64,000 bases of DNA from Luteolibacter rhizosphaerae. Lineage in GTDB: Bacteria; Verrucomicrobiota; Verrucomicrobiia; Verrucomicrobiales; Akkermansiaceae. The stretch spans positions 186,001-250,000 of the forward strand of contig NZ_JAPDDR010000006.1 of NCBI RefSeq assembly GCF_025950095.1, read 5' to 3'. Shown here piece after piece: positions 18,643-20,753 of this stretch; within the stretch, counting starts at the first letter, position 1; the number at the start of each line of letters is the position of its first letter. The position numbers were made by a program, and so were the translations under genes. The notes beneath the pieces are model-generated. The model saw nothing but the letters and a program-made list of their open reading frames with translations. It was not told where the DNA came from and did no database searches.

Positions 18643-19089
18643 ATGTCCTCCGCCCTCCACGAGAGTCACTTCGACTACAAGATGGACCCCAAGTTCCGGG
18701 TTTCCATCCCAGTCGATTGGCGCCCGGAGACGGAGGAGACGGCGATCCGCTTGCAGCTCTCGAAAGAACACGAGCTGCCGGTGATCAAGGTCTTCAGCGA
18801 AGTGGAGTTCGATAAGAAGTTCGAGGCGGTGGAGAAGAGCGATCTGACCCCTGCCAAGAAGCAACAGATCGTCGGTCATCTGCGGATGATGTCGAAGAAG
18901 GCCACCGTCAGCAGCCAAGGCAAACTCACCGTCCCGAAGGACTGGAGCGAGAAGATCGGGCTGAAGGCGGACGGTCCGGTGATCCTCGCCGGCCGCGGCC
19001 CCTTCTACATGCTTTGCACGCAGGAGACCTTCGACCGGATCACGGACATCGAGCTCGGTATGGACGACGGCGACCTCGGAGTCCTCTAA
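18643..19089 (+). CDS. mraZ: MraZ, transcriptional regulator of the dcw cluster
   Basis: 148 residues with two AbrB-like half-domains: DPKFRVSIPVDW (residues 15-26) and ATVSSQGKLTVPKDW (87-101), each a variant of the D-x-K-x-R...P signature. MraZ forms ring-shaped oligomers on DNA upstream of its own gene and represses the division and cell wall operon in studied bacteria. First gene of the dcw cluster as usual. No Shine-Dalgarno precedes the ATG. The canonical TGGG direct repeats bound by proteobacterial MraZ are not evident upstream, so the operator may differ here. Confidence 0.9.
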   Translation: MSSALHESHFDYKMDPKFRVSIPVDWRPETEETAIRLQLSKEHELPVIKVFSEVEFDKKFEAVEKSDLTPAKKQQIVGHLRMMSKKATVSSQGKLTVPKDWSEKIGLKADGPVILAGRGPFYMLCTQETFDRITDIELGMDDGDLGVL

Positions 19090-19151
19090 GACAGTTTCCC
19101 CACGACTTTCACCCACCCCAAAGACAAAGCGACAACATGCTGTTCGCCCAT

Positions 19152-19222
19152 CCAACCCCGGCATCCGCACAAGGCGGGCCCGCGACACCCATCGCGGGAT
19201 GCAGCCGGGTGCCGGGGTTGGG
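19152..19222 (+). other. Long hairpin between mraZ and rsmH
   Basis: Outer arms CCAACCCCGGCATCC (19152-19166) and GGGTGCCGGGGTTGG (19208-19222) pair over 15 bp with one G-U in RNA. An inner stem CCCGCGA / TCGCGGG (19179-19185, 19192-19198) sits in the loop. No U-tract follows, so it is not a standard terminator. It stands 62 bp after the mraZ stop and directly before the tandem repeats; a structured mRNA element or mobile-element relic is possible. Confidence 0.6.
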
Positions 19223-19231
19223 CTTCATTTT

Positions 19232-19786
19232 CCCATCGGGACGGACCGGCGCACTCGGGACAGCGCGCCTCTTCGTTCCTATCCATACGGCCGTCCGACC
19301 TGCATTCCATGGCTGGTTGGCAGGGCGGCGGCCGGAGACTTTCCTGGCTGGGCGGAAAGGGTTTCTCGGGACAGGACCCTTTTCGCTTCTTGAACCGGTG
19401 ATCCGCGCGGCTTCTGGCTGGTTGTCCGCGCGGGTCGCCGGTGACTTTCAGCAACAATTTCCATGCGGACGGACCAGCGCACTCGGGACAGCGCGCTCTT
19501 CCGTCCACTTCCATACGGCTGTCCGTTCCGCATTCCATGGCTGGTTGGCGGAGCGGCGGCCGGAGACTTTCCTGGCTGGGCGGAAGGGGTTTCTCGGGAC
19601 AGTACCCCTTTCGCTTTTCAACTCGGCGGTTCGCGCAGCTTCTGGCTGGTTGTCTGCGCGAACCCCCGACACTTTCCATGCGGACGAACCGGCGTACTCG
19701 GGACAGCGCGCCTTTTCGTCCATTTCCCAAACGGCTGTCCGTTCCGCGTTCCTTGGCTGGTTGGCGGAGCGGCGGCCGTTGGTAGA
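19232..19786 (+). repeat. Three imperfect tandem repeats in the mraZ-rsmH gap
   Basis: Units start near 19232, 19461 and 19677; the shared word G[CT]ACTCGGGACAGCGCGC begins at 19251, 19479 and 19694, so the periods are 228 and 215 bp. The third unit is cut short at about 19786, where rsmH begins. Copies share long stretches such as CATTCCATGGCTGGTTGGC and GACTTTCCTGGCTGGGCGG. Copy differences change the encoded residues, and copy 3 is frameshifted relative to the others and then restored, so these look like DNA- or RNA-level repeats, not protein-coding sequence. The reading frame of rsmH nevertheless stays open through all of them. Confidence 0.85.
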
Positions 19787-20753
19787 TTTCCAAGACCAGA
19801 ACGAAGCGGCGGAACCCTCCGCCTACCATCTCTCCGTGCTTCCCGAGGAAGTGAACGAGTGGATGCAGGCCGGGGAGGGGATGCACATCATCGACGGCAC
19901 GCTCGGCGGCGGCGGGCATAGCGAGGCCTTCCTGAAGGCTGGCGCTCAGGTGCTCGGCGTCGACCGCGATCCGGAGGCGCTGGCCTTCGCGAGCAAGCGG
20001 CTGGCGAAGTATGGCGATCGTTTCCGCACCTGGCAGGGCAACTTCGCAGATCTCCGGGACATCCCCGAGGTCCGGGGGGATAGCAGAGCCAATGGCCTGC
20101 TTTTGGACCTCGGGGTATCCTCCCGGCAACTCGACGCCGCGGAACGGGGTTTCTCGTTCCGCGGCGCCGGACCGCTGGACATGAGGATGGGGCCTTCCTG
20201 TCCCTTCGATGCCGCACACGTGGTGAACACTTGGGCGGAAGCGGAGCTGGTGAAGATCTTCCGCGAGCTGGGCGAAGAACCCCAGGCGCGCCGGATCGCC
20301 GCCGCGATCGTGAAGCGCCGCGCCAACCGCAACTTCGAAACCACCACGGACCTGGCCGAGTGCATCGAGAAGGAAATCGGGCGCCACGGCCGGATCCACC
20401 CTGCTACCAAAACCTTCCAAGCAATCCGCATGGTGGTGAACGACGAGCTCGGTTCACTGCAGCGTGCGCTTGAGAATTCGATCCATCTCCTGAAGCCGGG
20501 CGGCCGGCTTCTGGTCATCACTTTCCATAGCCTGGAGGACCGCATGGTGAAGCAGTTCATGCAGCACCGCGCGAAGCCCTTCATCGACCGGCCCGACTGG
20601 CCGGAACCGCGGCCGAATCCCGACTGGTGCTTCCGGCTGCCTGTTAGAAAAGCCATCGCCGCCGGCGAGAAAGAACTCCGAATCAACACCCGGGCCCGCA
20701 GTGCCAAACTGCGGGTCGCCGAGCTTCTGGATCCCAGCTCCTCACCCCGATGA
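19779..20753 (+). CDS. rsmH: RsmH, 16S rRNA C1402 N4-methyltransferase
   Basis: SAM-dependent methyltransferase of the MraW family, which methylates C1402 of 16S rRNA. From the TTG at 19779 it is 324 residues, the normal family length. Visible motifs: IIDGTLGGGGHS (residues 37-48), LGVDRDPEAL, LLLDLGVSSRQLD, and TFHSLEDRMVK near the C-terminus. The frame is open far upstream to an ATG at 19137, giving a 538-residue version with a 214-residue extension made entirely of the tandem repeats; homology starts only at YHLSVLPEEV, so the short form is preferred. Which start is used needs experiment. The stop overlaps the next ATG (ATGA). Confidence 0.85.
   Translation: MVDFQDQNEAAEPSAYHLSVLPEEVNEWMQAGEGMHIIDGTLGGGGHSEAFLKAGAQVLGVDRDPEALAFASKRLAKYGDRFRTWQGNFADLRDIPEVRGDSRANGLLLDLGVSSRQLDAAERGFSFRGAGPLDMRMGPSCPFDAAHVVNTWAEAELVKIFRELGEEPQARRIAAAIVKRRANRNFETTTDLAECIEKEIGRHGRIHPATKTFQAIRMVVNDELGSLQRALENSIHLLKPGGRLLVITFHSLEDRMVKQFMQHRAKPFIDRPDWPEPRPNPDWCFRLPVRKAIAAGEKELRINTRARSAKLRVAELLDPSSSPR

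Follow-up and report, generated by a model that had tools for sequence, protein, structure and literature searches.

The gene for the 16S rRNA-modifying enzyme RsmH (MraW) of Luteolibacter rhizosphaerae is preceded by a long, repeat-rich block of DNA whose reading frame stays open into the enzyme, which raises the question of whether this block is a mobile repeat, an untranslated RNA leader or a translated part of the gene. The locus was compared computationally between the stretch of 64,000 nucleotides analysed here, hereafter the window, and related genomes.

Locus layout

A preliminary description of the window had remarked on the length of the mraZ-rsmH gap, on a hairpin within it and on an open frame reaching back to an ATG at position 19137, and all three were found again. 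The end of mraZ (19089) lies 689 nt from the codon at 19779 with which the match to the RsmH query begins; the hairpin, designated H0, has outer arms of 16 nt (19152-19167 and 19206-19221) that are 94% complementary; and the frame opened at 19137 encodes 538 amino acids.

18643..19089, plus strand: mraZ, open reading frame of the upstream gene, with homologues just 5' of rsmH in relatives
19137..20753, plus strand: rsmH, open reading frame of 538 amino acids, with the extension at residues 1-229 and the RsmH core from residue 230 (nt 19824)

The core was identified as Methyltransf_5 (PF01795; residues 230-529 of the 538-residue ORF, E 7.3e-97), placing the product among the RsmH/MraW methylases. 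The mraZ product matched the Pfam families MazE_antitoxin (E 0.0013) and MraZ (E 0.039), both under the cut-off. RsmH homologues were present in 55 of the 57 genomes searched, the organism's own included. Elsewhere in the genome, outside the window, G000:C5:314572-315348 codes for another, diverged RsmH-like protein (37% identity over query residues 12-263), and such a protein also occurs in many relatives. An antisense ORF of 444 amino acids on the minus strand (19086-20420) covers the array described below and the start of rsmH, and is probably a by-product of high GC content.

Architecture of the hairpin array

Span-limited folds of six genomes resolved the block in the window as H0 followed by five A+B pairs in the order ABABABABAB, a total of ten hairpins. 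For every A and B hairpin, the coordinates below were derived by hand from alignment columns.

19129..19147, plus strand: short hairpin containing the ATG start codon (folds of 31 genomes and alignment)
19152..19221, plus strand: long hairpin H0, outer stem CCAACCCCGG.../...CCGGGGUUGG, codons 6-29 (repeat search and covariation)
19239..19278, plus strand: hairpin A1, loop UCGGGACAG (folds and alignment)
19288..19334, plus strand: hairpin B1, loop GGCUGGUU (folds and alignment)
19352..19386, plus strand: hairpin A2 (folds and alignment)
19396..19440, plus strand: hairpin B2 (folds and alignment)
19467..19506, plus strand: hairpin A3 (folds and alignment)
19516..19562, plus strand: hairpin B3 (folds and alignment)
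19580..19614, plus strand: hairpin A4 (folds and alignment)
19624..19668, plus strand: hairpin B4 (folds and alignment)
19682..19721, plus strand: hairpin A5, loop kept but out of the common frame, between compensating indels (outside the split covariation alignments)
19732..19778, plus strand: hairpin B5, common frame regained (outside the split covariation alignments)

The short hairpin at the ATG folds in most of the 31 genomes and is suggestive only as an element in its own right. The A loop reads (U)CGGGACA and the B loop GGCUGGUU; an A loop followed after 40-50 nt by a B loop occurs five times in the window against an expectation of 0.00. Folding of the block gave a z-score of -7.07, with none of 20 shuffles equally stable.

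At the DNA level the block contains a 203-nt repeat, present twice at a spacing of 228 nt and 85% identity, as well as three copies of 52-59 nt at spacings of 228 and 215-216 nt; these repeats were not listed by Tandem Repeats Finder at a minimum score of 40. The three copies of about 220 bp reported in the preliminary description are real as repeats, but the repeating unit comprises two A+B pairs, so that five pairs follow H0. Identity is about 50% between odd and even B hairpins, 79-87% between alternate copies and 76-86% between orthologous copies from different genomes. The linkers between B and A hairpins, such as that at 19340-19351, repeat the B-loop motif (UUUCCUGGCUGG). It is possible, judging by eye, that such a linker could pair with the A stem (CUUUCC/GGAAAG) as an alternative hairpin and so form a switch.

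Selection on RNA structure

Repeat units were located through exact matches to the loop strings GGGACA and GGCTGGTT, so that loop invariance in the resulting alignments arises partly by construction. A total of 75 units were extracted, of which 74 form alignment A1, the misregistered L019:1400-1498 having been dropped. When odd and even units were mixed, RNAalifold missed the A stem because A stems differ in register; the stem was recovered in the split alignments A2 and A3, which hold 27 + 29 = 56 of the 75 units. The other 19 units comprise the final ones in four genomes, the odd ones in L015 and L017-L020, and the single unit of L016.

Base pairing was kept in 94.0% of cells in even units, 96.1% in odd units and 92.7% in H0, and cells changed on both sides numbered 76, 45 and 55 against shuffled values of 22.5, 13.0 and 16.1, respectively (0/500 in each case), in tests that are inflated by the kinship of the sequences and on structures drawn from those same alignments. 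For H0, the number of pairs with a change on both sides, nine, was attained in 49 of 500 shuffles. Every measure fell when the partner was shifted by 1-3 columns. Of 2203 pair cells, 193 were G-U and 29 were A-C; since G-U cells far exceed A-C cells, it is the plus-strand RNA that folds, and a minus-strand structure was ruled out on the same grounds.

The loops are constrained at silent sites. Across 15 genomes the Gly-Thr at the loop was written GGG ACA in 70 of 80 cases, while ACA makes up 3% of the 268 Thr codons in the RsmH core and MraZ, and the Gly-Trp was written GGC TGG in 72 of 73, counts that are independent of the selection of units by exact strings. Loop codons break the local codon preference, and loop bases are kept where the amino acid would permit change. 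The loops, though strongly conserved, vary in places: two of the five A hairpins of L015 carry AAGGGACAG, and some loop strings are absent from L052, L066, L067 and L068, a few genomes of a second genus (g13).

The preliminary description had suggested an RNA leader controlling rsmH, and the covarying, plus-strand hairpins at rsmH support an element of that type. Comparison of genomes supports an in-frame array of RNA hairpins that is folded and conserved at one gene and that, with covarying structure at a fixed gene, is a candidate cis-regulatory RNA leader. One form of leader control, a translation-coupled transcription attenuator in which the hairpins terminate transcription unless a ribosome follows closely, might be read into the U-rich linkers (e.g. 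GAYUUUUCC) seen by eye after many B hairpins and H0. The U run begins several bases past the stem rather than immediately after a GC stem, and no terminator-like sites were found on the plus strand between 18300 and 20000, which renders attenuation highly improbable.

Reading frame and start of RsmH

Stop codons were counted in 31 genomes from the first in-frame ATG after mraZ, which opens the peptide MLF- and is conserved (19137 in the window), to the Tyr-His opening the RsmH core. Frame 0 contained none, compared with 73 and 72 in frames 1 and 2, and was stop-free in 31 of 31 genomes against 3 and 7 for the other frames; the genomes are related, and these counts do not amount to 31 independent trials. 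Dinucleotide shuffles gave a mean of 2.5 stops. G224 (L064), in which a run of N in the contig falls within the array and two rsmH-frame stops occur, was excluded from the frame counts; L054 duplicates L020 (G029), and a complete gap is absent in L016, L017, L021, L069 and L070. The MLF- ATG sits 28-56 nt past the mraZ stop in 15 genomes and, counting from the mraZ stop, one of these first 15 loci (L007) has a stop just ahead of the ATG. All 101 B-to-B distances, of twelve lengths, were multiples of three, and a hairpin pair mostly spans 34-38 codons. Because frame 0 is stop-free in every genome counted and B-to-B spacings are all multiples of three, translation of the block as part of RsmH is very probable, and it is doubtful that the in-frame fusion is an accident of annotation, as had been supposed.

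The earlier view of an untranslated leader would have RsmH start at the TTG at 19779 or at a TTG in the last B loop, the open frame being accidental. It can draw on the weak conservation of the encoded residues, on a TTG 13-22 codons ahead of the core in many genomes, and on the presence, in 12 of 31, of an ATG or GTG no more than 20 codons from the core, which also tells against a start that is exclusively upstream. The other 19 genomes have no ATG or GTG within that distance, however; in the window the nearest to the core is a GTG 142 codons upstream, nearer candidates being TTG only, and in L018 and L071 the nearest ATG, GTG or TTG is 52 and 36 codons, respectively, away from the core. With the stop counts, the spacing in threes and the conserved ATG with its MLF also set against it, an untranslated leader is very unlikely. 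The simplest reading would be that RsmH begins at the upstream ATG and that the array is translated.

A hairpin-rich block within a gene might also recall programmed bypassing of the hairpins by ribosomes. A bypassed gap need neither keep frame nor avoid stops, and since the rsmH block does both, bypassing is scarcely credible.

Selection on the encoded residues

In each of the 14 pairs compared, third codon positions accounted for 35-49% of substitutions in the extension, as opposed to 61-87% in rsmH; between L004 and L005 the substitutions at the three positions numbered 22/17/21 in the extension and 24/16/86 in rsmH. Eight A loops, in the window lineage (L004, L005) and four g13 genomes, keep their bases yet sit in another frame between compensating indels, which swap the residues around them. 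Off-phase CGGGACA strings number ten, of which two, in L006, follow B hairpins and so are not A loops. The frameshift reported earlier in the third copy, and later restored, was recovered here, the last loop intervals being 56 + 55 nt as opposed to 57 + 54 nt in most relatives.

These swaps and the low third-position share weigh against the extension being a real part of the protein, that is, dual coding of a repeat peptide with LGT and R..GWL..R motifs in which RNA folding serves translation or is secondary. Furthermore, no Pfam family scored above the cut-off in the extension, and an AlphaFold2 model from an alignment of eight sequences gave it a pLDDT of 20-33 (overall mean 51.4), which weakly suggests that it may be disordered. 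The B hairpins provide the evidence in favour of dual coding: their loop is in the same frame in 132 of 132 cases, their substitutions favour codon position 3 (86/80/136, with 41/48/67 in A hairpins), and the Arg codons on either side of the B loop have invariant first two bases in 74 aligned units, the phase having been assigned by hand. A peptide-level constraint around GWL in the B hairpins is accordingly possible on the substitution pattern, and dual coding retains some weight while being unlikely overall.

The preliminary description had considered a protein role unlikely. This holds insofar as the amino acids are mostly unselected but not insofar as translation very probably carries on from the block into RsmH, and purifying selection on its codons, proposed there as the refuting observation, proved split, the frame being strongly and the residues weakly selected. 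Across the aligned sequences the RNA and the frame are conserved, and the amino acids are conserved weakly.

Distribution across genomes

The DNA repeat gave three matches in the organism's own genome, all at the rsmH locus, and the array had no match when compared with phages and plasmids. The first 15 complete mraZ-rsmH gaps with an array, 14 from the window's genus (g1) and one (G029) from g13, measured 461-970 nt and held 3-7 CGGGACA strings; this first locus set includes Haloferula sp. BvORR071 and Luteolibacter marinus. With R1, a covariance model built on the even unit, matches were obtained in 46 of the 288 genomes of the order, seven being weak ones. Within g1 the model found the array in 17 of 18 genomes, including 16 of the 16 that are at least 90% complete, and within g13 in 59 of the 61 sampled, including 38 of 38 at that completeness. 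Matches in g1 fell at one main locus per genome, bar contig-split arrays and two weak strays (G011:C6:103238, 33.9 bits; G009:C1:1227972, 27.5 bits); among the g13 matches listed, those of G289, G318 and G322 are in each case spread over two contigs. In all 18 g13 loci read, rsmH stood directly behind the array. Contigs end in or beside the array at L016/L069 (G014), at L021/L070 (G013) and in G001:C48 and C143, which probably means that it is interrupted or collapsed in draft assemblies.

In a third genus (g10), both genomes looked at, G026 and G144, carry a reduced form of two A-like hairpins with loop AAGGGACGG, each after UGGCUGGGCGG, in the rsmH frame and free of stops. In G023 (L073) and G032 (L028), of other genera in the family, an H0-like hairpin and a PSPTP peptide lie just past mraZ with no array, and one rsmH-frame stop stands ahead of the PSPTP peptide. 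As these two genomes have an H0-like hairpin without the array, H0 may be the older part of the element. In six genomes of genera g12, g17 and g41, from other families, weak R1 matches occurred with neither rsmH nor mraZ in the stretch fetched; these matches were treated as chance or terminators. In L094 and L097 (g41) a hairpin with a B-like loop is followed by a U run, with rsmH absent nearby, and resembles an ordinary terminator.

The confinement of the matches to rsmH in the organism's own genome, the one main locus per g1 genome and the lack of phage or plasmid matches speak against the mobile repeat that had been proposed as one explanation. A related possibility is a tolerated in-frame palindromic repeat, expanded in tandem within rsmH and having no host function, after the manner of the Rickettsia palindromic elements. 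As with those elements, described in PMC10969869, the palindrome lies in frame in a protein gene; the number of B loops varies from 2 to 7 among the 31 genomes, and alternate copies within one genome are about as alike as orthologues. By the same description the Rickettsia elements occur in many genes, whereas the array consists of tandem copies with selected loops at one main locus, and dispersal was not found. A tolerated palindrome is decidedly unlikely given this restriction, the presence of the array in every g1 and g13 genome at least 90% complete, and the selection on both its pairs and its loop codons.

Comparison with known elements

No Rfam family reached its gathering score in the 64-kb window, and eight sub-threshold matches in the block had E values of 0.54-8.5. 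The mraW RNA motif (RF01746), listed for Actinomycetales (PMC2864571), is likewise a conserved RNA structure named for this gene, but the rsmH array differs in being tandem and lying inside a translated frame; RF01746 had no match in the organism's own genome and none in the block up to E 10, while the Corynebacterium glutamicum control matched. Transcription has been seen at cg2377 (mraW) in C. glutamicum, as noted in PMC3890552.

UpsM of the Rhodobacter sphaeroides dcw cluster is also an extended RNA leader of that cluster but is described as a 5' UTR before mraZ that contains a Rho-independent terminator (PMC5089854). PARCEL repeats are tandem coding repeats with dyad symmetry; compared by their description in PMC2996958, they are protein repeats of 25 residues in many ORFs, unlike the array with its mostly 34-38 codons per pair and weak residue constraint. 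The gene prfB, encoding RF2, offers an analogy as a translation factor gene with an early, in-gene sensor based on translation, although the accounts in PMC12421855 and PMC13245932 describe a frameshift at a premature stop codon and no hairpins.

Among the matches listed in the open-access literature there was no account of an rsmH hairpin array. Judged solely by those listings, the array is undescribed, and no Rfam family covers it at threshold.

A proposed translated leader acting on rsmH

The explanation favoured here, held with moderate confidence, is that the block forms an N-terminal leader of rsmH, both structured and translated, which would influence rsmH translation in cis. We infer this function, and the existence of a binding partner. 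Translation would begin at the ATG at 19137, a short way past mraZ, and ribosomes would read through H0 and the A/B array as an N-terminal extension of 229 residues under low constraint before reaching the RsmH core. Since they would have to unwind the start-codon hairpin, H0 and ten stem-loops, the array could serve as a throttle or sensor in cis on rsmH translation. The frame would be kept open because RsmH has no good start past the array in most genomes. The conservation of the loops suggests that they are recognised, and a recogniser, whether a protein, RsmH itself or RNA contacts of the loop-receptor type, may stabilise the fold. Two arguments count against this explanation: a pure throttle would have no need of conserved loops, and translating ribosomes would unfold the array.

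Several candidates for recognition were discarded. The A loop contains GGA, and an array binding CsrA/RsmA was considered, but PF02599 was found in 0 of 18 genomes, with controls matching in 3 of 14. Mimicry of rRNA was rejected as none of ten loop-derived strings occurred exactly in the 16S-gene stretch on either strand, and loop-loop kissing, considered by eye, was unconvincing.

A more specific form of the translated leader is that rsmH senses its own product, with H0 and the array needing RsmH-methylated ribosomes or with RsmH binding the loops, as feedback within the frame. According to the available text of a preprint (PMC13317604), Bacillus subtilis ribosomes modified by MraW/RsmH translate cmpA, isp and yukJ, which have a stem-loop at or near the start, better than unmodified ribosomes do, and a stronger cmpA stem blocks translation. 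The likeness lies in stem-loops at the start or early codons and in RsmH as the modifying enzyme; the B. subtilis cases, as set out there, are single hairpins in other genes, as opposed to H0 with 2-7 B hairpins and conserved loops in rsmH itself. Given this precedent, and because rsmH has a small hairpin at its ATG in most of the 31 genomes folded, followed by H0 (codons 6-29) and the array, feedback through the ribosome is a concrete hypothesis, albeit a rather unlikely one, and the conserved loops would require a further recogniser.

Implications

The array represents a large conserved structured RNA hidden in a coding frame, where searches confined to intergenic regions, such as that described in PMC2864571, would miss it; the same point on RNA concealed in coding regions has been made for CRISPR operons (PMC9067536). 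It also offers one stretch of sequence in which selection on the frame is separated from selection on residues, with natural compensated frameshifts as a control. As the preprint PMC13317604, in the text available, ties RsmH-modified ribosomes to mRNAs with early stem-loops, autoregulation is testable, and the position of the array in the gene for a 16S rRNA-modifying enzyme would permit a direct test of feedback from rRNA methylation on synthesis of the enzyme. In one group of Verrucomicrobia, rsmH probably carries a built-in control of its own expression.
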